Shown here: positions 24,312-63,779 of the stretch, one piece after another
How the letters are laid out: every line of letters starts with the position of its first letter
How positions within the stretch are numbered: position 1 is the first letter of the stretch
Source: Dyadobacter jiangsuensis
GTDB taxonomy: Bacteria > Bacteroidota > Bacteroidia > Cytophagales > Spirosomataceae
Assembly: GCF_003014695.1 (NCBI RefSeq)
Contig: NZ_PYAS01000016.1
Location: 62,001-126,000 of the forward strand
Reading direction: 5' to 3'
Length of the DNA stretch: 64,000 bases
Translations under genes and position numbers: made by a program
The notes under the pieces: generated by a model
Told to the model about the DNA's origin: nothing
The model's database searches: none
The model's input: only the letters and a program-made list of their open reading frames with translations

Positions 24312-24457
24312 GTCAATTTCTAGTCAGGTGTTGTCAGAAAGTCATTTAATGTGTTCCTTCCACTTCCTGACAACTTCCGACAATATCTGACCAAACCTGA
24401 CGATACTTGACAACACCTGACCACACCTGACCCTACTTGACAATACCTGACCAAACT
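24312..24457. repeat. Inverted array of 10-bp repeats (locus 1)
   Basis: The left arm has GTCA-type units starting at 24312, 24323, 24333 and 24341. The right arm has TGAC-type units starting at 24368, 24378, 24388, 24398, 24408, 24418, 24428, 24438 and 24448, exactly 10 bp apart. The right-arm consensus TGACAATACC is close to the reverse complement of the left-arm unit GTCAGGTGTA. The array ends 20 bp before the next ATG. Confidence 0.85.
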
Positions 24458-25606: not shown

Positions 25607-25770
25607 GTCAAGTATAGTCAAGTTCTGTCAGGTGTAGTCATTCATTGTTTCCCAAGGTTAATAAAACACCTGACAACACTTGACAACACCTGCCAACACC
25701 TGACAATACCTGACAATACTTGACCACCCCGGCAATACCTGACCATCATCTGACCATAATTGACATCCAA
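25607..25770. repeat. Inverted array of 10-bp repeats (locus 2)
   Basis: The left arm has GTCA units at 25607, 25617, 25627 and 25637. After a 30-bp spacer the right arm has TGAC-like units at 25671, 25681, 25691, 25701, 25711, 25721, 25731 (degenerate), 25740, 25751 and 25761. The last unit, TGACATCCAA, runs straight into the ATG of the dipeptidase gene at 25772. Confidence 0.85.
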
Positions 25771-36430: not shown

Positions 36431-36457
36431 TGACACCACCTAACAAAACCTAACTAA
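36431..36457 (+). repeat. Degenerate trace of the 10-bp repeat before the LTA-synthase-like gene
   Basis: TGACACCACC, TAACAAAACC and TAACTAA follow each other at exact 10-bp steps (36431, 36441, 36451) and run into the ATG at 36458. The units resemble TGACAATACC of the three clear arrays. No obvious left arm remains. Confidence 0.4.
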
Positions 36458-38404
36458 ATGGATTCTGCCACTCAGCGAGTTGGAACACCGAGCACAGTAC
36501 GCTCAAAATCAACCTTTTTATCCCGCCCTCTGATTATTGCGCTGCTCCTGGTCTGCATTTCGATGCTAACCCGGATTACCCTGATGCTGAAAGCCGGCAA
36601 CGGCGTAGATTACAGCCTGACCAATATGCTGGGCATTTTCGGTATAGGGCTTTTCTATGATATTCTCAATTCCCTGTATTTTCTTATTCCTGTTATGTTG
36701 CTTGGCTGGGTAACACCCACCAGGTACGCCGGCAAAATGGGGTCTAAAATAGCGGCCGGGATCTTACAGTTCATCCTGGTGTTCCTGCTTTTGCTGAACG
36801 CCGTCTCCGAATGGGTATTCTGGGACGAATTTGGCTCCCGGTTCAATTTCATCGCGGTCGATTACCTGGTTTACACGCAGGAAGTGGTGGGTAATATCCG
36901 ACAATCTTACCCGGTGGAGACGATCATCGGCGTATTACTTATCCTGGCCGTGTTACTGACAATACTGGTATCGCGGCTATCCAGCCGGTTCGCCTTCGGG
37001 CCAATGCGCTTCGGAAGACGATCGCTGGTGATAGGCGCATATTTCCTGATCGTTGTAACGGTTTTTATGACGGTCGACAACAGGATTCGCCAATTTAGCC
37101 GCAATGTCTACGTCAACGAGCTGGCTGGCAACGGAATGTACGAGCTCTTTGCGGCTTACCTTAACAACGAGCTGGATTACAATCAGTTCTATATCAAACT
37201 TGATGATCAACAGGCCTCGTCGACCATACGGTCGCTGGTAAAAACGCCGGAAAGCAGGTTTACCGATAATAAACCATTCTCCATTGAGCGGGATATTGTC
37301 AATACGGGTGCTGAACTGCACAAAAACATCATCCTAATCAGCGTGGAAAGCCTCAGCGCCGATTTTCTGGGAAGCTTCGGAAATACGCAGGGCATCACAC
37401 CCTCGCTCGATTCGCTGGCCCGGCAGAGCCTGCTGTTCACCAACCTTTACGCGACGGGCACACGCACGGTCCGCGGTCTGGAAGCACTGTCGATATGCAC
37501 ACCGCCGACGCCCGGCCAATCCATCGTACGCCGGCCCCGCAACGAAGGCCTCTTCTCTATGGGTAGCGTATTACAAAACAAAGGCTATCAGACCCGGTTC
37601 ATCTACGGCGGCTACGGATACTTCGACAATATGGGCTATTTCTTCGGCCATAACAACTATAAGGTGGTCGACCGGACCGCGCTTTCGAAAAAGGACATCG
37701 ACTATGAGAACATCTGGGGCGTTGCCGACGAGAACCTTTTTGAACTGGCTGCACGTGAAATCGCCTCCGCCTCCAAGACCGGCAAGCCTGTATTCGCCCA
37801 CATCATGACCACGTCCAATCACCGTCCTTACACCTATCCCGAAGGGCGCATTGACATCCCCTCACACACGAGCCGCGAGGGCGCCGTAAAATATACCGAC
37901 TTCGCCATCGGCCAGTTCATCCGCAATGCCAGAAACCAGCCCTGGTTCAAAAACACGTTGTTTATCATTGTGGCCGACCATTGCGCATCCAGCGCCGGAA
38001 AAACCGATCTGCCGGTTAACAAATACAAAATACCATTGATGATGTACGCACCGGGATTCATCGAACCCGGCGTGATGCCAAGGCTTATGAGCCAGATCGA
38101 TATCGGGCCGACTGTGCTGGGCTTGCTTAACTTCTCCTACCGCAGCAAGTTCTTTGGTTATGACATTTTCAAACTCGAACCCGGCCGCGAGCGGGCATTT
38201 GTGAGCACCTATCAGAGCCTGGGATACATTAAACACGACTCGTTGATCGTATTAAAGCCCCAGCGAATTGCCGCTACATTCACCCCTAACTTTACCGACG
38301 GCTCCACCACTCCGGCTTCACAAAACACCCAATTGCTCGACGAAGCCATTGCCTGGTACCAGAGTGCCAGTTTTCAGTTCAGGAATGGCCTGATGAAAAA
38401 ATAG
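36458..38404 (+). CDS. LTA-synthase-like membrane sulfatase-fold phosphotransferase
   Basis: A 648-residue protein of the LtaS/YejM/OPG type. Five membrane helices occupy about residues 22-205. The extracytoplasmic domain begins with NIILISVESLSADFLGSFG, which carries the first Glu metal ligand. The nucleophile is probably Thr337 in ATGTRTVRGLEAL. Later metal ligands lie in HIMTTSNHRPY and IIVADHCAS. In Gram-positives the enzyme polymerises glycerol phosphate. In Gram-negatives relatives transfer phosphoglycerol to glycans or act on lipid A, so in this Bacteroidota a role in modifying an envelope glycan or lipid is likely. It stands alone and ends with a 16-bp hairpin that runs almost to the start of the next gene. 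Confidence 0.88.
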   Translation: MDSATQRVGTPSTVRSKSTFLSRPLIIALLLVCISMLTRITLMLKAGNGVDYSLTNMLGIFGIGLFYDILNSLYFLIPVMLLGWVTPTRYAGKMGSKIAAGILQFILVFLLLLNAVSEWVFWDEFGSRFNFIAVDYLVYTQEVVGNIRQSYPVETIIGVLLILAVLLTILVSRLSSRFAFGPMRFGRRSLVIGAYFLIVVTVFMTVDNRIRQFSRNVYVNELAGNGMYELFAAYLNNELDYNQFYIKLDDQQASSTIRSLVKTPESRFTDNKPFSIERDIVNTGAELHKNIILISVESLSADFLGSFGNTQGITPSLDSLARQSLLFTNLYATGTRTVRGLEALSICTPPTPGQSIVRRPRNEGLFSMGSVLQNKGYQTRFIYGGYGYFDNMGYFFGHNNYKVVDRTALSKKDIDYENIWGVADENLFELAAREIASASKTGKPVFAHIMTTSNHRPYTYPEGRIDIPSHTSREGAVKYTDFAIGQFIRNARNQPWFKNTLFIIVADHCASSAGKTDLPVNKYKIPLMMYAPGFIEPGVMPRLMSQIDIGPTVLGLLNFSYRSKFFGYDIFKLEPGRERAFVSTYQSLGYIKHDSLIVLKPQRIAATFTPNFTDGSTTPASQNTQLLDEAIAWYQSASFQFRNGLMKK

Positions 38405-47823: not shown

Positions 47824-47851
47824 GTCGGCGGTCCATGGTCCGCGGTCAGAA
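47824..47851. repeat. Short array of 7-bp GTC repeats at the SusC 3' end
   Basis: Units GTCGGCG, GTCCATG, GTCCGCG and GTCAGAA start at 47824, 47831, 47838 and 47845, exactly 7 bp apart. The stop codon of the SusC gene (47846-47848 on the - strand) lies inside the last unit. A possible partial opposing arm precedes it (CACGACCACCAACGATC). Confidence 0.65.
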
Positions 47852-50836
47852 TCCCAACGTCAACCCCACCGTATACACCTTCGCATTCGGATACGAACCT
47901 CGGTCGATACCAATCGCCGTGTCGGTGCTGGAACCTACGTTGCTCGTTTCCGGATCAGGACCAGTGTATTTGGTGATCGTAAACAGGTTCGTGGCGCTCG
48001 CGAAAACGCGGATATTGGCCTTATCCTTGAAAACCGAAGACGGCACGTTATAAGCCAGGCTCACGTTTTTCAACCTTACAAAACTTCCGTTTTCCACAAA
48101 CCGGCTCGATTGCGTAAATGGCTGGTAAGTTTTGGTAAATGCAGGAATATCCGAATCTTCATTACCCGGACGGTAGTAGTCGCGAATCTCCGTCAGCAGA
48201 AACTGGCGTGCTTCCCCGGAGCCCGACATCGCGCCTGCGCGGGTGTAGTTCAGCTTGTCCACGCCGAATGCCCCCTGGAAGAACACATTCAGTGTAAGTC
48301 CGCCATAGGTAAAGGTGTTATTCCAACCGCCGGTCAGTTTCGGGAACGCGTGGCCGACAATCTGGAAATCGTCGGTGGTGATCGCATTATCGCCGTTTAC
48401 GTCCTCATAATGCGGATCGCCGGGAACACGGCCCTGTTTGGCAGCGATGTCGGCTTCATTGGGTTTGAAAGTACCCAGGTATTTGAGGCCCCAGTAAGAG
48501 CCCAGCGGCTGACCCGGCATGAGCATAAACTCGTTGGTGATGGACATCCCGCCGCCTGCACCGGTTCCCGTTCCGAGCCGTGGTAACCCGCCGAGGCTCA
48601 CCACTTCGTTTTTCAGGGTTGACAAATTCAAATTCGTTTCCCAGCTGAATTTCCCTTTTTCGATAGGCGTACCACCAATGGCGAACTCGAACCCGCGGTT
48701 GCGGATCTCGCCTACGTTGCGCGGCTGCGTACCTCCGCCCGCGTAGTTGGGCAGCTGTACGTTCAGCAGCAGGTCGGTCGTGCTCTTGTTGAAGTAATCC
48801 GCCTCGAAATGCAATCTTCCGTTCAGGATCTCCATTTCAATACCCACGTCGGTCTGCGTGGTGGTCTCCCATTTCAGGTTCTTGTTGCCCTGGTTACCCT
48901 GGATCACCCCGGCCGTGACGCCGGTATTGTTGAAACCGACCTGCGTAGAGTTGTAGGGCGACAAGGTCGCATAAGGGTTAATAGCCTGGCTACCGGTTTT
49001 ACCCCAGCTTCCACGCAATTTCAGGTTCGAGAATACATTGAGGTTCTTGATAAACTCCTCCTCCGAAAGCCGCCACCCCAGGGCAACCGACGGGAAAATA
49101 CTGTTCCGGTTATCCTCGCTGAATTTCGACGAACCATCACGACGGATAGCCGCGGTTACCAGGTACTTGTCTTTGAATGCGTAATTCACCCTTCCGAGCA
49201 ACGAAAGCAGCGTCCATTTCGAGAAGCCCGAGCTCACGGTTGCGGCCGAGTTGCCACCGATGTTATCATAACCCAGTTGCGGGAAACGAAGCCCGTTGGC
49301 CGTGGCTGTGAAGTTCTTGTCGGTAAATTGCTGGGTTTCCAATACTGCTACCGCCGTAATCGAGTGATTTCCGAATGTACGGGTGTAGTTCAGTGCATTG
49401 GTGTTCTGCAAAGTCACCTGGTCGGCCGAGTAGCGGGTTGCATTCGGGTTATTATTCGAAAGGCGCTTGCCATTAAAGCTCTTGTTCTGCGCGTCGAGGT
49501 AGTTGATCGCGTATTGCAAGTCGAGCGACAGGCCTGTGATAGGCAGTTGGTAGCTTAGCCCGCCGATGGCGTTGATGTTCATCCGCTCGACGTCGATAGA
49601 CTTGTCGTACAAGTGATCCAGCGGACTCCTCGAAACAGAACCCGTCGGATCCGCGAATGTAGGCTGGCCGTCGGAGCCATACGCAGGCGTGGTAGGCGCC
49701 CATTGCAACGCTTCGATCAGCGCACCGCCGCCATCGGTATTATGGTTGGCTGTCTTTGCACCCGACAAATTGAGTCGCAATGCAAGGTTCTTATTGATCT
49801 GCGTGCGCAAATTGGTTCTCAAAACATACCGCTTGAAACCGCTGTTGTTCACGATCCCTTTCTGGTTTACATAGTTACCGGAGATCAGGAACGAGGTTTT
49901 CTCATTCCCGCCCGAAACCGTCACCTGATGCTGCTGACCGCTTCCCTTGCGGTAAACCAGGTCCTGCCAGTCGGTACCGCCATTCTTCTTGAAATCGTCG
50001 ATCTGGGCTTGTGTAAACGGTGCATTGGAGCCCGTGGCAGCTGCACGTGCATTGACGATCTCCGCGAATTCGCCCGCAGGAAGTATATCGAATTTCTTGA
50101 TCACGTTCGAAACGCTTCCCTGCCCTTCATAACTCACTTTAATACCCTTACTGCCTTTTTTGGTTGTGATGATAATCACCCCGTTAGCTCCCCGGCTACC
50201 GTAAATGGAAGTCGAAGCCGCATCTTTCAGCACTTGCAGCGATTCGATATCGTTGGGATTCAGCAAACTATAATTAGCTCCCACAAAACCATCGATCACA
50301 TAAAGCGGATCGTTGTTACCGAGTACCGAGTTGGCCCCACGAACACGGACCTTCGAATCCCCGCCCGGCGCGCCGTTGGACTGCGTTACCTGCACACCGG
50401 CCGCACGTCCCTGCAACACCTGATCGAGCCGGGTAATGGGCTGTTGCGAGAACTCGCGCGTCGAAACCACCGACAATGCACCGGTAACGTCGGTTTTCTT
50501 CTGGGTACCATACCCCACCACCACCAGTTCGTCCAGGCTGCGTGAGCCCTGTGCAAGTTTGATATCGATTACCGAACGGTTACCGATTTCCACCGTCTGA
50601 CTTTCATAGCCGATAAACGAAAACACCAGCGTGCCGCTTCCCGGCGCCTGGATCACATAGTTCCCCTCTCCGTCGGTTACGGTACCCTGCGAAGTACCAC
50701 TGATGAGGATACTCACGCCGGGCAGCGCTGCATTGTCCTGATCGGTCACCTTTCCGGTCACCCTGGCATTCTGGGCAAGCAAACTTCCGCCCCCCAAGCC
50801 GAGCAACACCAAGCATAAACTCAGTAATTTTCTCAT
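47846..50836 (-). CDS. SusC/RagA-family TonB-linked outer membrane protein
   Basis: A 996-residue SusC. The signal peptide (LLSLCLVLLGLGGGSLLAQN) is followed by a carboxypeptidase-regulatory-like domain at about 23-100 (VTGKVTDQDNAALPGVSIL, SGTLVFSFIGYESQTV), the SLDELVVVGYGTQKK linker and the plug with QVLKDAASTSIYGSRGANGV near residues 206-225. The barrel ends with YTVGLTLGF. It takes up a nutrient with its SusD, whose gene lies 80 bp downstream. In this intergenic and upstream DNA lie 7-bp repeat arrays. The gene is in the long leftward run that includes DgoD-like, DgoK and DgoA enzymes. No FecI/FecR-type regulator is next to it, so control probably lies with the LacI gene upstream. Confidence 0.95.
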   Translation of the reverse strand: MRKLLSLCLVLLGLGGGSLLAQNARVTGKVTDQDNAALPGVSILISGTSQGTVTDGEGNYVIQAPGSGTLVFSFIGYESQTVEIGNRSVIDIKLAQGSRSLDELVVVGYGTQKKTDVTGALSVVSTREFSQQPITRLDQVLQGRAAGVQVTQSNGAPGGDSKVRVRGANSVLGNNDPLYVIDGFVGANYSLLNPNDIESLQVLKDAASTSIYGSRGANGVIIITTKKGSKGIKVSYEGQGSVSNVIKKFDILPAGEFAEIVNARAAATGSNAPFTQAQIDDFKKNGGTDWQDLVYRKGSGQQHQVTVSGGNEKTSFLISGNYVNQKGIVNNSGFKRYVLRTNLRTQINKNLALRLNLSGAKTANHNTDGGGALIEALQWAPTTPAYGSDGQPTFADPTGSVSRSPLDHLYDKSIDVERMNINAIGGLSYQLPITGLSLDLQYAINYLDAQNKSFNGKRLSNNNPNATRYSADQVTLQNTNALNYTRTFGNHSITAVAVLETQQFTDKNFTATANGLRFPQLGYDNIGGNSAATVSSGFSKWTLLSLLGRVNYAFKDKYLVTAAIRRDGSSKFSEDNRNSIFPSVALGWRLSEEEFIKNLNVFSNLKLRGSWGKTGSQAINPYATLSPYNSTQVGFNNTGVTAGVIQGNQGNKNLKWETTTQTDVGIEMEILNGRLHFEADYFNKSTTDLLLNVQLPNYAGGGTQPRNVGEIRNRGFEFAIGGTPIEKGKFSWETNLNLSTLKNEVVSLGGLPRLGTGTGAGGGMSITNEFMLMPGQPLGSYWGLKYLGTFKPNEADIAAKQGRVPGDPHYEDVNGDNAITTDDFQIVGHAFPKLTGGWNNTFTYGGLTLNVFFQGAFGVDKLNYTRAGAMSGSGEARQFLLTEIRDYYRPGNEDSDIPAFTKTYQPFTQSSRFVENGSFVRLKNVSLAYNVPSSVFKDKANIRVFASATNLFTITKYTGPDPETSNVGSSTDTAIGIDRGSYPNAKVYTVGLTLGF

Positions 50837-50904
50837 GGAATATTTATAGTTGAACGTTATTAAATTCTATTTTATCGAAAGCATGGATGTACCGTTCCAA
50901 TATC

Positions 50905-51055
50905 GACCGCCGACGACTGACCGCCGACCGCCGATTGCTTGATTTAATCGTTAGGTTTTATCTTACTTGATTTTCAGCTGTTGCAGCCAACCGCCCCTAG
51001 CATGCGATCGGCTGTCAGCGGTCGGCCGTCGGCGGTCCATAGTCGATCGTCCACG
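50905..51055. repeat. Inverted array of 7-bp repeats between SusC and DgoD-like genes
   Basis: The left arm has GACCGCC-type units at 50905, 50912, 50919, 50926 and 50933. The right arm has GTCGGCG-type units at 51014, 51021, 51028, 51035, 51042 and 51049. The period is exactly 7 and the arms are near reverse complements. The 74-bp spacer holds a LacI-like half-palindrome TTTAATCGTTAG at about 50943-50954. Confidence 0.8.
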
Positions 51056-52336: not shown

Positions 52337-53578
52337 TTACCAGTTATGGATAGCGCCATCCGGACTTTTCAGGATCGGATGCGGGAATTTGGTTTTCTCT
52401 TTGACCTCCATGATGAAGGTCGCTTTTTTAGGATCAAATTTTACCCCCAGTCCGGGCGCATCGTTGAGATATAGCTTACCGTTTTTGAAATTGATAAAAT
52501 CCTCGTTGAAGTAAGGCGGCCGCTCCGGTTCGCCTCCGCCGAGCTCCATCAGCGCCCGTGCCGGACTGCTCGAACCCAATACGTGCACCAATGTGGCCGT
52601 CGCCAGCGGGCCTGTAAAATGCGGTATCATACCCACATAATGCGTTTCGCACATCGACGCCAGTTTCTTGAATTCGCTGATCCCGCCGGTGTTCGGCAAT
52701 GTGAACCGGGTGTAATCGATCCAGCGGTTCTCGATAAACTCGTTGCAATCCCAGCGATCGCCGAACTGCTCGCCTACGGCAATAGGCACCTTGGTCATCG
52801 AACGTACGGTTTTGTACACCGACGGGTTCTCCGAGCGGATAATATCCTCCACGAAATACGGTTCGAGCGATTCGAGCGCGGTACAGATCTTCAAACCGTC
52901 GGTCATATCGAAACGGGTATGCAGGTCGATGGCCCACTTACCCCCGCCGCCCACGGCTTCGTCGATTCTTTTGCAGAACTCGATCGTCTTTTTCACATTT
53001 TCGTAAAAGTCAAAAGGCTGATCGCCATTACCACCCGTCGGTCCGATACGGTACGCGCGCAGCCCGGCTTCAATGCAATCCCTGGCCCGTTCCTCTTCGG
53101 TTTTGGCTTTTGAGGCGCGGAAACCGGTGGCATAGCATTCCACGTAATCGCGGGTGGCACCGCCCAGGAGCTCGTACACCGGCACATTCAGGGCCTTGCC
53201 TTTAATGTCCCAAAGCGCCATTTCCAATGCACCCAATGCGTGCAGCTTCTCGCGCCCCGGCGGGTAAAACATCCCGCGGTACACGTTCTGCCAGATGTGT
53301 TCGATGCGGAACGGGTCCTCTCCGATCATCATCTGCGCGCATTGTTCAATCATATCCTTCGAGCCGCCCTCGCCAATGCCGATAATGCCGCCGTCGGTTT
53401 CGATCTCAACAATCCCGCGGGCCTGGTTGAACAGTGGTTTGTTGTACCCCGGCGCGGCGTAGTACCGTATTTTGGTAATCTTCATTTTGGAAGCGGCCTC
53501 GGCCTTCGCGAACGGAAAGCCCGCCGCAACGGCGGTAGTACCCAGGAAGGCGGTTTTTATAAAATTTCTTCTTCTCAT
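52337..53578 (-). CDS. Enolase-superfamily acid-sugar dehydratase, exported (subgroup unknown)
   Basis: A 413-residue mandelate-racemase/muconate-lactonizing-type enzyme. The N-terminus RRRNFIKTAFLGTTAVAAGF is Tat-like. Family blocks are MALWDIKGKALNVPVYELLGG, AIDLHTRFDMTD (Asp and His), YFVEDIIRSEN (Glu-Asp), VAVGEQFGDRW in the form AVGEQFGD, LPNTGGISEF and PHFTGPLA with the likely catalytic His. The loop pattern differs from DgoD and from the ManD group, so the acid sugar is unknown. It is 4 bp before the DgoD-like gene and clearly co-transcribed. A 10-bp repeat array begins 14 bp upstream of its ATG, and a perfect LacI-type palindrome lies about 270 bp upstream. Confidence 0.88.
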   Translation of the reverse strand: MRRRNFIKTAFLGTTAVAAGFPFAKAEAASKMKITKIRYYAAPGYNKPLFNQARGIVEIETDGGIIGIGEGGSKDMIEQCAQMMIGEDPFRIEHIWQNVYRGMFYPPGREKLHALGALEMALWDIKGKALNVPVYELLGGATRDYVECYATGFRASKAKTEEERARDCIEAGLRAYRIGPTGGNGDQPFDFYENVKKTIEFCKRIDEAVGGGGKWAIDLHTRFDMTDGLKICTALESLEPYFVEDIIRSENPSVYKTVRSMTKVPIAVGEQFGDRWDCNEFIENRWIDYTRFTLPNTGGISEFKKLASMCETHYVGMIPHFTGPLATATLVHVLGSSSPARALMELGGGEPERPPYFNEDFINFKNGKLYLNDAPGLGVKFDPKKATFIMEVKEKTKFPHPILKSPDGAIHNW

Positions 53579-53592
53579 AAATGTTTCGTTTG

Positions 53593-53822
53593 GTCTGATA
53601 TTGTCAGGTGTAGTCAGGAATAGTCAGGTGTGGTCAAGAGTTGTCAGGTGTAGTCAGGTGTAGTCAGGTGTAGTCAAGAGTTGTCAGGGAATAGTCAGGT
53701 ATGGTCATATGCGGTCATTTGTTGTAAACTTCCTACTCAGAATCGGTTGTCCGTCTCCTAACAATACTTGACAATACCTGACAATACCTGACAATGCTTG
53801 ACAATACCTGACCACCCCTGAT
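53593..53822. repeat. Inverted array of 10-bp repeats (locus 3, longest)
   Basis: The left arm starts with a GTCT unit at 53593 and GTCA units at 53603, 53613, 53623, 53633, 53643, 53653, 53663, 53673, 53683, 53694, 53704 and 53714. The right arm has TGAC units at 53769, 53779, 53789, 53799, 53809 and a degenerate one at 53819. The left consensus is GTCAGGTGTA, the right TGACAATACC. Nearly all steps are exactly 10 bp. The left arm abuts the ATG of the leftward dehydratase gene. Confidence 0.9.
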
Positions 53823-53844
53823 TACTTTTATAACCGCCTGTTCA

Positions 53845-53856
53845 TTAAACGTTTAA
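53845..53856. promoter_or_regulatory. Perfect CG-centred palindrome, candidate LacI-family operator
   Basis: TTAAACGTTTAA is a perfect 12-bp palindrome with CG at its centre, the usual LacI-family operator design. It lies 29 bp downstream of the lacI-type stop and in the promoter region of the leftward dehydratase pair, so it is a good candidate site for that regulator. Confidence 0.5.
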
Positions 53857-53885
53857 GCAATTCGAGCCAAAAAAAGCTCCCCGGA

Positions 53886-54920
53886 TCAGCCGGTAAGAGC
53901 CGGTTTGGCCTTCGAGGATTCACGGGCGATCAGTTTGGCTTCCATCAATATCTGCTTCATACTCTCCTCAGGGTTTTTCAGTTTGGTTAATAAAAACTCA
54001 ACCGCCGTTTTGCCCAGCATTTCCAAGGGCTGCTGCACGTAGGTGATCGGGCAATAATACAGGTCGAAAACTTCTGCCTGGCCGTAGCTGACGATCGCCA
54101 GATCGGATGGCACTTTGAGGCGCAGCTCATTAATGTACTTTAATGCATTGATAGCCAAACCATAAGTCGCGAAAATCATGGCATCCACGCGCTGTTCGGA
54201 TGCCAGTATTTCGTCGATGGCCGTGCGTACCTCGCTATCCATCGTTTCGAAATGCACCTCTTTCAGCCAGGAATCGTGGAACTCGATGTGGTTGTCACGC
54301 AACGCGTGCTTGTAACCCCGCACCCGCTCCTCCATATGGTACATATTCGATTTGTAGGCCATGATCCCGATCTTCGAATAGCCGCTTTGAATAAGATGAA
54401 CACCGGCGTCGTAAGAGGCTTTGTAGTTGTTAGTGGCCACAAAATCTGTCTGTATTTCGGGAAAATGGCGGTCCAGCAATACAAATGGGATATTCCGCTC
54501 TTTGAGATAATGCACCTGGTTTTCGGAACCTTCGCAGGAAACGATAATGAAGCCGTCGACCTGCCGGTTGATCAGCACATTGAGCAGATCCCACGATTTC
54601 TCGGCGTGCTCGTCGCAGCTCCCGATGATGACCGTGTAGCCATTCTTTTTCGCTTCATCTTCCACCACCCGCGCGATATTGGCGAAAAACGGGTTGGAAA
54701 TGTCGGCGATGATCAGCCCGATGGTGTAGGTCTTACCGCTTCGGAGGCTTTTGGCCAGGTGGTTGGGCTGATAGTTCAATTCCTTGGCTATCTGCCTGAT
54801 TTTCTGCGCAATGACCTCCCCCACCCTGGTTTCCTTTTCCTTACCATTGAGGACGTACGAAACCAGAGCCGTGGAGACCCCCGCTTGCTGTGCAATATCT
54901 TTGAGCGATGCTTTTTTCAT
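53886..54920 (-). CDS. LacI-family transcriptional regulator
   Basis: A 344-residue LacI/GalR regulator. The DNA-binding headpiece is at residues 4-55 (ASLKDIAQQAGVSTALVSYVLNG, then the hinge YQPNHLAKSLRSGKT). The periplasmic-binding-protein-like sensor core follows: IGLIIADISNPFFANIARV, VDGFIIVSCEGS, FVLLDRHFPE, GYSKIGIMAY and VRGYKHALRDN. It probably binds an acid sugar or its breakdown product and controls the flanking dehydratase and SusCD genes. Its ATG overlaps the stop of the ManD-like gene by 4 bp, so regulator and enzyme are translationally coupled. Perfect CG-centred palindromes at 53845 and 61472 are likely operators. Confidence 0.93.
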   Translation of the reverse strand: MKKASLKDIAQQAGVSTALVSYVLNGKEKETRVGEVIAQKIRQIAKELNYQPNHLAKSLRSGKTYTIGLIIADISNPFFANIARVVEDEAKKNGYTVIIGSCDEHAEKSWDLLNVLINRQVDGFIIVSCEGSENQVHYLKERNIPFVLLDRHFPEIQTDFVATNNYKASYDAGVHLIQSGYSKIGIMAYKSNMYHMEERVRGYKHALRDNHIEFHDSWLKEVHFETMDSEVRTAIDEILASEQRVDAMIFATYGLAINALKYINELRLKVPSDLAIVSYGQAEVFDLYYCPITYVQQPLEMLGKTAVEFLLTKLKNPEESMKQILMEAKLIARESSKAKPALTG

Positions 54921-56311
54921 GGACGTATAAGCGTACCGTCGAATTTTCTTACTTGCCAGTTCGATTTTGTACTGATGGGGAACTTGGCCGCGACCTTTTC
55001 ATCGATGTCCACCCCAATGCCCGGCACTTCGTTCACCGACATATAACCGTTCTTCATCGTCGGGCAGCCGGAGAATACTTCCAATGTTTTGTCATTGAAC
55101 TGGACCGCCTCCTGGATACCGAAGTTCCACACAGCCAGGTCGATATGGGCATGGGCCGAATGCCCTACCGGCGACACATCGCCAGGGCCATGCCAGGCTG
55201 TTTTGACATTGAACCATTCCCCGAGCCTCGCCACTTTCATGGCCGGCGTAACCCCGCCGATCTGCGACACGTGAATGCGGATGTAGTCGAACCACTGGTT
55301 GGCCATCGGTTCCAGAAACTCGTTGATATTATTGAACAGCTCGCCCATAGCCAGCGGCACCGTGGTACTCTGGCGAAGCAGTTTAAACCATTTCATGTTT
55401 TCGGGTGAAAACGGGTCTTCAATAAAGAATGGGCGGAATTCTTCAAGTTTTTTGATCATATTGATCGCATTCATCGGCTGCACACGTTCGTGGATATCAT
55501 GCAGGAGCTCCACTTCCTCCCCGCATTGCTTGCGCACGGTTTCGAACAGAATCGGGATCGCTTTCAGGTAGGCATTTTCGTTCATATAGTTGTCCGTAGC
55601 GCCCCCAAAGCCTGCCTCCTTGAAATCCGGCTTCTTGGTAGTGCTGCCTACGGCCCCGTAACCACCCTGCTGAATACGAATGTAGCGGTAACCCTGCTCC
55701 TGGATCTTCTTCACGCTCTCCACCGTTTCCTCGGGTGTGCGGCCGTTCGCATGCGTGTAACACGGCACGGCGAAACGCACTTTACCGCCCAGCAGCTGGT
55801 ACAACGGCATTCCGGCACGTTTGCCTTTGATATCCCAAAGCGCCTGATCCAGCCCGCTCAGCGCATTGTTCAGCACCGGACCGTTGCGCCAGTAAGAACT
55901 CACATAGGCGGCATGCCACATGTCTTCGATATTGTCGACGTCCCTTCCGACGCAAAATTCATTGAGATAGGTATTGATCGCCACCAGCACCACTTCGGCG
56001 CGCTGTGTGAACGTGGCACACCCAAGCCCGTACAGTCCCGGTTCGGAGGTTTCGACCTTCACGACAATGAGGTTGGAGCCCTGCGGCGCCGTGGCAATCG
56101 CGCGAACGCTTTTGATCGTCAGCGATTTCAAGCCTTTGGCGTACTGAGGCGTTTCGCGGTCGGCGGTCCGACGCTCGGCGGTCCGATGGTCGACGGTCCG
56201 ACGGTCGGCGCGCGCATTCGGAATGCCTCCAAACAAGCCCAGTATTCCCGCGGACCCGCTCAGCCCCAATGCTCTCATCGTGTCTCGACGACTCATTCCG
56301 TTCTCTTTCAT
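54917..56311 (-). CDS. ManD/RspA-like enolase-superfamily dehydratase, exported
   Basis: A 464-residue member of the mannonate-dehydratase-like (ManD/RspA) branch. Tat-like start SRRDTMRALGLSGSAGILG. Family blocks: LWDIKGKRAGMPLYQLLGG, ELLHDIHERVQP, FFIEDPFSPEN, LAMGELFNN, HVSQIGGVTPAMK, TAWHGPGDVSPVGHSAHAH and a KFDGTLIRP end. It should dehydrate D-mannonate or D-gluconate, or may be low in activity, as the RspA subgroup is. The linker after the signal (about residues 35-58) is a 5-residue repeat (ADRRT, VDHRT, AERRT, ADRET) made by 15-bp units of the GTC repeat found elsewhere between genes. The first ATG (56311) is kept, although one 15 bp in (56296) is equally good. Confidence 0.88.
   Translation of the reverse strand: MKENGMSRRDTMRALGLSGSAGILGLFGGIPNARADRRTVDHRTAERRTADRETPQYAKGLKSLTIKSVRAIATAPQGSNLIVVKVETSEPGLYGLGCATFTQRAEVVLVAINTYLNEFCVGRDVDNIEDMWHAAYVSSYWRNGPVLNNALSGLDQALWDIKGKRAGMPLYQLLGGKVRFAVPCYTHANGRTPEETVESVKKIQEQGYRYIRIQQGGYGAVGSTTKKPDFKEAGFGGATDNYMNENAYLKAIPILFETVRKQCGEEVELLHDIHERVQPMNAINMIKKLEEFRPFFIEDPFSPENMKWFKLLRQSTTVPLAMGELFNNINEFLEPMANQWFDYIRIHVSQIGGVTPAMKVARLGEWFNVKTAWHGPGDVSPVGHSAHAHIDLAVWNFGIQEAVQFNDKTLEVFSGCPTMKNGYMSVNEVPGIGVDIDEKVAAKFPISTKSNWQVRKFDGTLIRP
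56159..56210 (-). repeat. GTC repeat inside a coding sequence, 15-bp period
   Basis: GTC-type units begin at 56159, 56166, 56174 (CTC), 56181, 56189, 56196 and 56204, giving steps of 7, 8, 7, 8, 7 and 8. The 15-bp sum keeps frame and encodes the 5-residue repeat of the ManD-like protein linker. The intergenic copies have a strict 7-bp period. Confidence 0.8.
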
Positions 56312-61691: not shown

Positions 61692-62897
61692 ATGACCTTT
61701 TTAAAACGTATGTTGGAACAATCCAGGCTCCCGCTGTCTGTCGGGCAGTTCTGGTGGTACTCCTTCTGCTATTGGGGCATTTTCGCGGTAATAACGTTCG
61801 GTCAGCTTATGATGCTGTGGCTTTTGAAGGAAGGGGTGGTGATGCAGCCTCACGAAATGTTCATCTGGCTGCTCGATGGCCTCTTCTGGTGGTCCACGAG
61901 TCCGCTTGTGCTGTACGCGGCCATCAAAGTACCGATCGCATTCAAGGTCCGCGAAAGTTCCTCCATTTTCAAACCGATCCTGGTCCATCTGGCGATCGTT
62001 ACTTTTCTCAATATTTTCATCAACATCCTGCATTACTATATTACCAATCCGCTCATGTACCGCGCGGTGGGCAAATCGGTGCCGCTGGAAAACTACCTGT
62101 TTTCGTTCTTCATTGCCTACACTGCAAGTTTTGGTCAATACCTGCTCCTTGTGGTGGGCTTTAACAAGGTATCCTACATTTATCGTTACCAGGAACTGAA
62201 ACAGCAGAATTTCGAGACTGAACTGCACAACGAGCAGCTGCGCGGGCAACTGGCGAATGCACAGCTGCAATCGCTGAAAATGCAGCTCAATCCGCATTTT
62301 CTTTTCAATACGCTGCATAGTGTGGTTAGCCTGATGGTTAAAAACGATATCCGCAAAGCCACACTCATGATCACCACCCTCAGCGACCTGCTGCGTGCGG
62401 TACTCGTGAACCAGTCGGCCGATTTCATTCCTTTGCAGGAGGAACTGCAACTTACCCGGCAATACCTCGACATCCAGCAAATCCGTTTCCAGGACCGTCT
62501 GAAAGTCGAATACCGCATCGATCCGGCGTCCGAACTTTACCCGGTCCCCCAGCTCATCCTGCAACCGATCGTGGAGAACTCCATTACACACGGCATTTCC
62601 GACCTTACCACCAACGCGCTCGTCCGCATTACGAGCGCCGTAACGGCCGCGGGCATGCAGGTAACGGTTTACGACAACGGCCTCGGTGCCGCATCGCGGA
62701 AATCGTCGAAAGGAATGGGACTCGGATTGCAAAATACCTTGCTGAGGCTCCAACAAGCCTACGGCGCAAACGCCCGCCTGGAATTTGACCAGCCGACTGG
62801 CGGAGGTACGGCGGTAACGCTGTTTTTTGACGGCCGACCGCCGACGGCAGACCGCCGAAAGGCCGGTACTGAGGTGGGTGCGGAAAATAGACCATAG
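61692..62897 (+). CDS. LytS/YehU-type membrane sensor histidine kinase
   Basis: A 401-residue kinase of the His_kinase (PF06580) class. Four membrane helices lie in about residues 21-160, then a coiled coil (ELKQQNFETELHNEQLRGQL). The phospho-acceptor block is MQLNPHFLFNTLHS with His202. The ATPase half has the N-box LILQPIVENSITHG (Asn296) and a G-box with GMGLGLQNTL. No extracellular sensor domain is present, so the membrane helices themselves may sense. The protein's natural end is near LFFD (about 380); the last 20 residues (GRPPTADRRKAG...) are encoded by the 7-bp GTC repeat, an extension of the reading frame into it. The partner regulator follows. Confidence 0.93.
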   Translation: MTFLKRMLEQSRLPLSVGQFWWYSFCYWGIFAVITFGQLMMLWLLKEGVVMQPHEMFIWLLDGLFWWSTSPLVLYAAIKVPIAFKVRESSSIFKPILVHLAIVTFLNIFINILHYYITNPLMYRAVGKSVPLENYLFSFFIAYTASFGQYLLLVVGFNKVSYIYRYQELKQQNFETELHNEQLRGQLANAQLQSLKMQLNPHFLFNTLHSVVSLMVKNDIRKATLMITTLSDLLRAVLVNQSADFIPLQEELQLTRQYLDIQQIRFQDRLKVEYRIDPASELYPVPQLILQPIVENSITHGISDLTTNALVRITSAVTAAGMQVTVYDNGLGAASRKSSKGMGLGLQNTLLRLQQAYGANARLEFDQPTGGGTAVTLFFDGRPPTADRRKAGTEVGAENRP

Positions 62898-62980
62898 ACC
62901 GCCGACCGCCGAAAGGCCTGCGCTGAGATGTACATAGAAGACGGACGATCGGCGGTCGGCGGTCAGTCGTCGGCGGTCAA
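62829..62980. repeat. Inverted array of 7-bp repeats between kinase and response regulator
   Basis: GACCGCC-type units start at 62829, 62836, 62843, 62850 and again at 62890, 62897, 62904; the two blocks end alike (GAAAGGCC, then CTGAG). Opposing GTC units start at 62955, 62962, 62969 and 62976. The period is 7. The kinase reading frame ends inside the array. Confidence 0.8.
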
Positions 62981-63011
62981 AACAACAATCACCAAACACC
63001 CCAAAGAAACC

Positions 63012-63779
63012 ATGAAATACCGCTGCCTGATCATCGATGACGAAATGCTGGCAAGGGACGTAATCAAGACTTTTGTACAGCATGATCATTCCATTGAAAT
63101 CACCGACGAGGCCGCCAATGGCCCGGAAGCGGTGGTGAAAATACTCCAACACCGGCCCGACGTCATTTTTCTGGATATTCAAATGCCCGAACTCGACGGT
63201 TTCGAGGTGCTGCGCGAAGTGTGGCCGCATCATCAGCCCTTCGTTGTGTTCACCACTGCATTCGACCAATATGCGCTCCGTGCCTTCGAAGTGAATGCGA
63301 TCGACTATTTGCTCAAACCCTTTGACGAAATCCGCTTCCATCAGTCGCTTGGGCGGTTGAAAGAACGGCTTAGCCAAAAGTCGCAGCCTCGGATCGAGGA
63401 ATTGGTCAATAGCCTCCTGCGCGACCAGAAGGAGGAAAACTACCTGCAAAGGCTGCTGGTTAAAGAAGCCGGTAAAATGTACCTGGTTAAAACGGACGAC
63501 ATCACGCACTTCTCGGCCGATGGCAACTACATATCCGTTTACACCGCTCAGAAAAAGATTTACACGATTTACGAGAGCCTTGGCAGCCTCGAAAACCGCC
63601 TCGACCCGGCGATCATGATCCGCGTAGGCCGCTCGAACATCGTCAATATGAACTTCATTTCCGAACTTGAAACCTACTTCAACGGGGAGTATATCATTCA
63701 TTTATCCACCGGCGAAAAAGTGAAATGGACACGTGGCTACCGCGATAATATCAAGGCTTTCATCACCAAAATGGGTTAG
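63012..63779 (+). CDS. LytTR-family response regulator
   Basis: A 255-residue response regulator. The receiver domain (1-118) has the acidic pair in LIIDDEM, the phospho-acceptor Asp55 in FLDIQMPELDG, Thr in VVFTTAFDQ and Lys102 in YLLKPFDE. The DNA-binding LytTR domain covers about 150-252 (LVKEAGKMYLVKTDDITHFSADGNYISVY, RVGRSNIVNMNFI, KWTRGYRDNIKAF). The ATG at 63012 begins the receiver exactly; an in-frame ATG 84 bp upstream (62928) would read 28 residues out of the repeat array and is rejected. With the LytS-type kinase it forms a two-component system, maybe controlling the divergent SusCD genes. Confidence 0.94.
   Translation: MKYRCLIIDDEMLARDVIKTFVQHDHSIEITDEAANGPEAVVKILQHRPDVIFLDIQMPELDGFEVLREVWPHHQPFVVFTTAFDQYALRAFEVNAIDYLLKPFDEIRFHQSLGRLKERLSQKSQPRIEELVNSLLRDQKEENYLQRLLVKEAGKMYLVKTDDITHFSADGNYISVYTAQKKIYTIYESLGSLENRLDPAIMIRVGRSNIVNMNFISELETYFNGEYIIHLSTGEKVKWTRGYRDNIKAFITKMG

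Follow-up and report, generated by a model that had tools for sequence, protein, structure and literature searches.

Genomes of Dyadobacter, a genus of soil and plant bacteria, hold hundreds of matches each to arrays of short tandem units at gene ends. In the window, a 64,000-nt stretch of Dyadobacter jiangsuensis DNA (positions 62001-126000 of contig C16 in the 8.27-Mb, 47-contig genome G000), arrays of a 10-bp unit with a TGAC core face each other across a loop. We put at about even the chance that these elements are palindromic minisatellites, that is, non-coding repeat DNA in which inverted tandem arrays surround a loop and lie chiefly past stop codons. A more tentative proposal is that they represent a new class of repeats, in which 7-, 8- and 10-bp families invade each other's loops, dialects are genome-wide and a core is kept amid drift. 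If true, this class would have gene 3' ends as its habitat and would imply a trans-acting factor that makes or polices the arrays, be it a binding protein, a nuclease or a copying enzyme.

The first-pass annotation of this DNA had raised the possibility of an undescribed repeat system, and the literature search agrees with it: no description of these arrays was found in open-access PubMed Central papers, subscription papers being outside its scope. The D. fermentans genome paper uses the word "repeat" twice, once in "CRISPR repeats 0" and once in the title of a reference (PMC3035232). A search of the window against Rfam at gathering scores gave no match to a described RNA family.

Arrays in the window

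The following arrays were located in the window:

53603-53717, minus strand: GTCA arm of the 53.6-kb element, 12 exact units (TGAC on the minus strand) in 10-bp steps with one 11-bp step
53718-53768, no strand assigned: loop of 51 nt separating the exact arms, with one degenerate unit at 53759
53769-53812, plus strand: TGAC arm of the 53.6-kb element, 5 exact units, with a degenerate unit next, at 53819
24312-24344, minus strand: GTCA arm of the second element, GTCA at 24312, 24323, 24333 and 24341
24368-24451, plus strand: TGAC arm of the second element, 8 exact units
25607-25640, minus strand: GTCA arm of the third element, 4 exact units
25671-25764, plus strand: TGAC arm of the third element, 8 exact units with degenerate ones interspersed
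36431-36458, plus strand: weak trace, one TGAC and two degenerate units ahead of an ATG (TRF score 35)
50893-51049, no strand assigned: inverted heptamer arrays, GACCGCC facing GGCGGTC, in the gap upstream of the gene at 47846-50836 (minus strand)
62825-62982, no strand assigned: inverted heptamer arrays at the junction of the predicted genes 61809-62897 and 62928-63779

At 53.6 kb, the array reported earlier is present, but against its count of 13 GTCA and 6 TGAC units there are 12 and 5 exact ones, with degenerate units (TAAC at 53759 and TGAT at 53819) flanking the TGAC arm; its spacer of about 45 bp has to be corrected to the 51 nt between the exact arms. That the arms could form a long imperfect hairpin is borne out by a strong predicted fold of the minus strand from 53570 to 53890 (-109 kcal/mol, z -7.75), and the 24.3-kb gap gives a predicted z of -2.07, with 7 of 200 shuffles as good. 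The same design had been claimed at 24312 and 25607, and two facing arms were indeed found at each; in the former (24312-24451), three chained GTCA units and a fourth, off-step GTCA face the 8 exact TGAC units. The trace claimed at 36431 exists but is weak. The heptamer arrays at 50893-51049 belong to a sister family with the two-arm design of the decamers and a 7-bp period, which is common in G000 and in some related genomes. A 15-bp repeat, CGGTCGGCGGTCCGA, was also noticed at 56157-56210, close to where the predicted minus-strand coding region 54917-56278 begins.

The 53.6-kb element is atypical in its distance of 73 nt from the stop codon, with a palindrome, TTAAACGTTTAA (53845-53856), lying in between. 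The palindrome sits just past the stop codon of a LacI-family regulator gene, which is the gene upstream of the element, and is kept in several relatives; because its neighbour encodes a LacI-family regulator, it could plausibly be an operator of the gene downstream. Across the 21 genomes in which the orthologous gap was compared, including G000, its length runs from 39 bp (G033) and 47 bp (G011) up to 1278 bp (G044). Four of these orthologous loci (L229, L234, L242 and L245) have other hairpin repeats between the decamer arms or in the same gap, namely GGCTCC..GGAGCC or GCCCC..GGGGC followed by a CTGTTTCTAGAAA-like sequence. Since such repeats share the gap with decamers, the gap gathers several repeat types. 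Spread of decamer arrays by plasmids was rejected, as the 53.6-kb element matched none of 72,556 plasmid records by blastn.

Abundance, unit grammar and taxonomic spread

The unit is enriched genome-wide, as expected of a genuine repeat system. A core-only pattern of four TGAC units has 445 matches in G000 and its reversed control none; the strict four-unit pattern has 182 against 0, and a palindromic two-arm pattern has 120 per strand against 0. Chains of at least three TGAC or GTCA units at about 10-bp spacing number 103 in 640 kb sampled around arrays of G000, compared with a median of 6 over all 4-mers, reverse complements being merged.

Three samples were used for closer analysis. The own-genome sample comprises the window and 46 regions of contigs C1-C10 chosen around about 100 listed array places, and the sample from G021, a genome on another branch of the gene tree, was drawn from the first 100 of 182 places. 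The named set consists of 80 loci examined from named genomes among at least 99 matches. Of these 80, 75 are from Dyadobacter, and the five others (L036, L049, L087, L094 and L108) were kept in the counts; several named loci are orthologous to one another, which makes the p-values given below optimistic. Regions of G000 match many of the named Dyadobacter loci at about 75-90% DNA identity over kilobases.

Read outward, the 661 units of the own sample follow the form TGAC-[A/C/T]-A(94%)-[C/T]-[A>T]-C(72%)-[C>A,T], with G at no more than 4% at each of the six positions outside TGAC. Units of G021 share TGAC and the A at position 6 (95%) with those of G000, but A predominates at their positions 9 (57%) and 10 (53%), and the share of G rises to 10-11% at three positions. 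Because the two genomes differ at positions 9-10 and in G content, genomes carry dialects of one decamer unit, and the scarcity of G is a trait of the G000 dialect and not of the whole family.

The expectation that close relatives would carry the arrays was confirmed, the core-only decamer pattern matching 35 of 48 Dyadobacter genomes. Among 222 genomes of the GTDB family, octamers were found in 89, heptamers in 38 and decamers in 18 (strict pattern) or 54 (loose pattern). The reversed octamer control matches in 2 of the 222; the heptamer pattern is less specific, as its reversed control also matches some genomes (in G043, 16+6 matches against 15+5 for the control; in G000, 47+51 against 0). 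Short single-arm TGAC decamers, judged by eye, occur on contigs of Planctomycetales (L087), Dictyobacter (L094), a deltaproteobacterium (L108) and Streptomyces (L049). Such single-arm decamers outside Dyadobacter are apparently independent small arrays of the same kind of unit. Viral contigs gave six single matches, seemingly short runs, none with two clear arms.

Two-arm architecture

Each arm is a tandem array of 3-26 exact units, not a single palindrome of 20-40 bp, and units follow one another head to tail at a constant period, 1493 of 1662 steps being exactly 10 bp. The arms have a fixed polarity. Among neighbouring decamer arms no more than 150 nt apart, pooled from the own, named and 20 relatives' regions, GTCA precedes TGAC in 89 pairs, the opposite order occurs in none, and 14 pairs lie on the same strand; G021 gives 10, 0 and 4. 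The earlier statement that the arm nearest the gene always reads TGAC is thus automatic and uninformative on gene direction, because a GTCA..TGAC palindrome reads alike on both strands. Pairs within the other families behave likewise (16 '+-' and no '-+' for octamers, 12 and 0 for heptamers), although octamers have a different core and a G-rich/C-rich arm polarity opposite to that of decamers.

Two functional suggestions do not generalize across these families. A 10-bp phase that would place units on one helical face is contradicted by 7- and 8-bp arrays of the same two-arm design, and a stop block in all three frames does not extend to pure GACCGCC repeats, which have no stop in any frame; octamers, moreover, use the same spots as decamers. 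A point that weighs against palindromic minisatellites is that 28 of 103 arms in the own sample have no partner of three exact units within 250 nt, and no clear remnant was seen on the partner side of these lone arms (TGAC 25 and GTCA 23, against 11.7 expected).

Exchange and nesting of repeat families

The gene trio at 23.8-26.8 kb, encoding a YjgF-family protein, a D-serine dehydratase-like protein and a peptidase M19, is matched at least partly in all 48 genomes of the genus that were searched, and its two gaps were compared by eye in 20 of the 47 relatives. Four genomes (G001, G003, G005 and G010) have tight junctions of -2 to 26 bp with no arrays. In many relatives one or both gaps carry an octamer palindrome, TGAATGAN facing TCATTCAN, directly past the stop codon; the gaps of G012, like those of the window, hold decamers, and in one gap of G043 decamer arms lie within octamer arms. 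Orthologous loci elsewhere repeat the pattern, the decamer element at L140:6015 standing opposite an octamer palindrome in a relative and that of L143 opposite a stretch with both heptamers and decamers. Depending on the species, therefore, the same intercistronic spots hold octamers or decamers.

Decamers were found combined with another family in thirteen composites. In five, both outer arms are 7- or 8-mers with decamers inside; the remaining eight are one-sided and compatible with the decamers being inside, and none is reversed. Decamers thus nest inside octamer and heptamer palindromes, and they probably arrived later than the outer arms. On a gene tree of 30 species, many of whose inner branches are weak, octamers are widespread and strict decamer numbers shift sharply between relatives.

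Growth and divergence of the arrays

Similarity between units depends on how far apart they stand in the array. At the named loci, unit identity is 0.626-0.639 at even lags and 0.523-0.554 at odd lags (random, 0.501); in the own sample it is 0.584 at lag 2 and 0.50 at lag 1 (random, 0.491). In G021, lags 4 and 8 reach 0.68 and 0.65, lags 2 and 6 reach 0.54 and 0.57, and odd lags give 0.39-0.48 (random, 0.46); identical four-unit words also occur at two G021 loci 5.6 kb apart. Because even lags exceed odd ones and four-unit words are shared, copying proceeds in blocks of 20 or 40 bp, that is, two or four units. Lag 1 alone had suggested that units were independent draws, a view overturned by the even-lag similarity. 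Of the earlier idea of a selfish slippage repeat, slippage is part of the story, in the form of two- and four-unit copying. A gradient of age outward from the loop is weak (lag-2 identity 0.587 at the loop end and 0.536 at the distal end) and was not retained.

Orthologous arms have a median identity of 0.83 (n=44), against 0.79 for unrelated arms (n=284), and array lengths differ between species, one genome per species having been compared. Hypermutation of the bases outside the core was rejected as a cause: fourfold sites in the flanks of orthologous arms are themselves drifted (identity 0.45-0.67), so ordinary drift suffices to explain the divergence. Two of 33 orthologous comparisons are instead 98-100% identical within flanks of 88-90% (L162:4365-4540 with L105, and L164:6025-6147 with L088), which looks like constraint or recent transfer and not free turnover. 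A second array in L162, 1.5 kb away, differs between species, unlike its near-identical neighbour.

The core does not share in this drift. Exact TGAC is kept in all but 100 of 1762 interior slots, a count that is biased because chains end at two degenerate slots, whereas identity between random units at non-core bases averages 0.49-0.50. Base preferences are nearly equal in 5' and 3' arms. Since TGAC-N-A stays intact while other bases drift, we infer a sequence-specific constraint on this core that operates at the DNA level or equally on the two strands. Young, homogeneous arrays exist beside old ones that have drifted but kept the core.

Placement relative to genes

Genes were called with a purpose-made hexamer-score caller, not a published one. 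By these calls, the 66 elements of the own sample comprise 46 co-directional, 14 convergent, 5 divergent and 1 coding, and the 94 elements at named loci comprise 54, 26, 3 and 1, with 10 at locus edges; G021 has 9 co-directional, 7 convergent, no divergent and 1 at an edge. The arrays are thus intergenic and not randomly placed, in line with the first-pass annotation. Array-free gaps of at least 150 bp have a convergent to divergent ratio of 11:50 (own) and 10:44 (named), relative to which arrays favour convergent over divergent gaps (Fisher p 1.4e-5 and 2e-10). Against all array-free gaps, the contrast gives p 1.7e-6 at the named loci and p 0.051 in the own sample, the latter counting against the preference.

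Among the 100 co-directional elements, 73 have the upstream stop codon within 40 nt (50 of them within 15 nt) and 40 have the downstream start codon within 40 nt. On a scale of the free gap running from stop to start, these elements lean toward the stop (median 0.16, n=94, p 3e-8), and in convergent gaps 57 of 80 element ends that face a stop codon are no more than 40 nt from it. The habitat of decamer arrays is therefore the gene end and not the start codon, and start-codon anchoring was rejected as a rule. It had been suggested by the window, where an arm was placed 0-20 bp before the ATG; the three loci in fact lie 7, 24 and 26 nt from the next start codon, so that the first falls within that range and the other two outside it.

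Alternative explanations

The strongest rival, which we regard as possible but rather doubtful, holds that the arrays are multi-site binding platforms, each decamer being a TGAC-N-A site for a DNA- or RNA-binding protein recruited to gene ends. With similar reserve, such platforms might insulate, terminate or organize transcription, the other families having proteins of their own. Intact cores in otherwise drifted units, the exact 10-bp steps (1493 of 1662), the fixed polarity of the arms and the genome-wide dialects at positions 9-10 are all consistent with this reading. It is opposed by the octamers, which use the same spots with another core and the opposite G-rich/C-rich polarity, and by the 7- and 8-bp periods, which leave one helical face; moreover, no candidate protein emerged, the search having stopped short of a whole-proteome comparison.

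Less probable still is that the arrays are selected RNA hairpins (terminators, attenuators, RNase processing sites or 3'-end stabilizers) whose folding is under selection. Placement past stop codons and in convergent gaps, the strong fold at 53.6 kb (z -7.75) with the weaker one at 24.3 kb (z -2.07), and the two-arm design retained across unit families would fit this reading. Against it, pairing does not change when the units of one arm are shuffled (mean z +0.18 over 35 elements, of which 15 are negative), and arm identity at matched ranks is random (0.474 own, 0.507 named); on these grounds unit-by-unit compensatory pairing was rejected. Arm lengths are uncorrelated (rho 0.21 and 0.20). A wobble signature was rejected, as 3' arms are slightly poorer in T than 5' arms (0.368 and 0.409, per-arm p 0.02), the opposite of what G-U pairing predicts, and T-tract terminators were rejected because, of 100 co-directional elements, 29 have a T-rich stretch after them and 30 before them. 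The proposed attenuator thus finds neither T-tract enrichment nor compensation between the arms, despite the strong fold at 53.6 kb. If the arrays act through RNA at all, the bulk hairpin and not tuned pairing would be responsible. In E. coli, REPs that lie no more than 15 nt from a stop codon reportedly stall ribosomes and lower translation (PMC12306157, in the part drawn on here); by analogy, a similar effect of decamer elements is plausible, because half of the co-directional ones lie within 15 nt of the stop.

Control of translation initiation ahead of start codons, as proposed for the TAACTGA heptamers, is very unlikely: the three window loci do lie 7-26 nt before the next start codon, but only 40 of 100 co-directional elements have a start within 40 nt, and the convergent ones (40 of 160 over two sets) face no start codon at all.

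Least credible of all is a REP/BIME family spread by RAYT, a Y1 transposase, for although the arrays are high-copy extragenic palindromes near stop codons and Y1 transposase genes are matched in 47 of 48 Dyadobacter genomes (1-11 matches each), RAYT mobilization was rejected for want of copy-number tracking (G012 has 3 RAYT matches and 162 strict decamer matches, G042 has 11 with 0 strict and 5 loose) and of adjacency (none of seven RAYT neighbourhoods, all 5 of G000 and 2 of 3 of G012, holds 7-, 8- or 10-mer arrays). Two of the five G000 neighbourhoods hold other palindromes of at least 26 nt. A GCCGTTAGGCATGTAACATTGGTAG-like repeat forms palindromes beside a RAYT gene in L257 and is present in several array-bearing gaps (L136, L146 and L072); it is likely to be a RAYT-linked REP of Dyadobacter.

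Proposed mechanism and implications

If the elements are palindromic minisatellites, their arms would grow by copying blocks of two or four units, and the 7-, 8- and 10-bp families would share one design, with octamers and decamers exchanging at the same spots and decamers nesting in other palindromes. Their near absence from divergent gaps may reflect selection that removes arrays near promoters or seeding that favours gene ends. Once transcribed, the arrays would fold into long, imperfect hairpins between cistrons and at the 3' ends of mRNAs; like REP hairpins, which can do so, these probably influence mRNA decay or the final stages of translation. Some agent that recognizes TGAC-N-A may keep the core intact, and such a factor, if it exists, would be a new sequence-specific system.

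The arrays bear on mRNA 3' ends, which have apparently been little mapped in Bacteroidota, and on the origin of palindromic tandem arrays, long palindromes usually being unstable. The family of unit at a gene junction varies by species and the two-arm layout is constant, which offers a natural experiment on what is tolerated or used past a stop codon.

Comparison with known systems

Intrinsic terminators and hairpin clusters are hairpin-forming sequences downstream of stop codons. The decamer elements resemble terminators in forming hairpins past stop codons, but they show no enrichment of T-tracts and are also found within a trio of genes whose junctions are tight in some relatives.

The TAACTGA heptamers are likewise short intergenic tandem units, of a length that is not a multiple of three and present in many copies (MacGregor 2015, PMC4679880). 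According to the portion of that paper used here, they are sporadic across phyla, including a few Bacteroidetes, and some "forward" units stop all frames; they are direct repeats, most of them a few nt ahead of a start codon, and one of 170 sets is inverted. In decamers, by comparison, inverted arms are the rule, the stop codon is nearer than the start, and the unit is 10 bp long with drifting bases.

REP and BIME elements, as described in the part of PMC12306157 consulted, are also extragenic, palindromic and of high copy number, and often lie within 15-20 nt of a stop codon. The decamer elements differ in having arms of tandem 7-, 8- or 10-bp units in place of one 20-40 bp palindrome, and no link to RAYT. 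Bacterial LSSRs and VNTRs share tandem units of 5-11 nt and probably a change of copy number by block duplication (Mrazek 2007, as cited in the portion of PMC4679880 used here), whereas in the arrays described here two inverted arms keep a fixed polarity, the units are degenerate around a constant core, and several families swap at the same spots.
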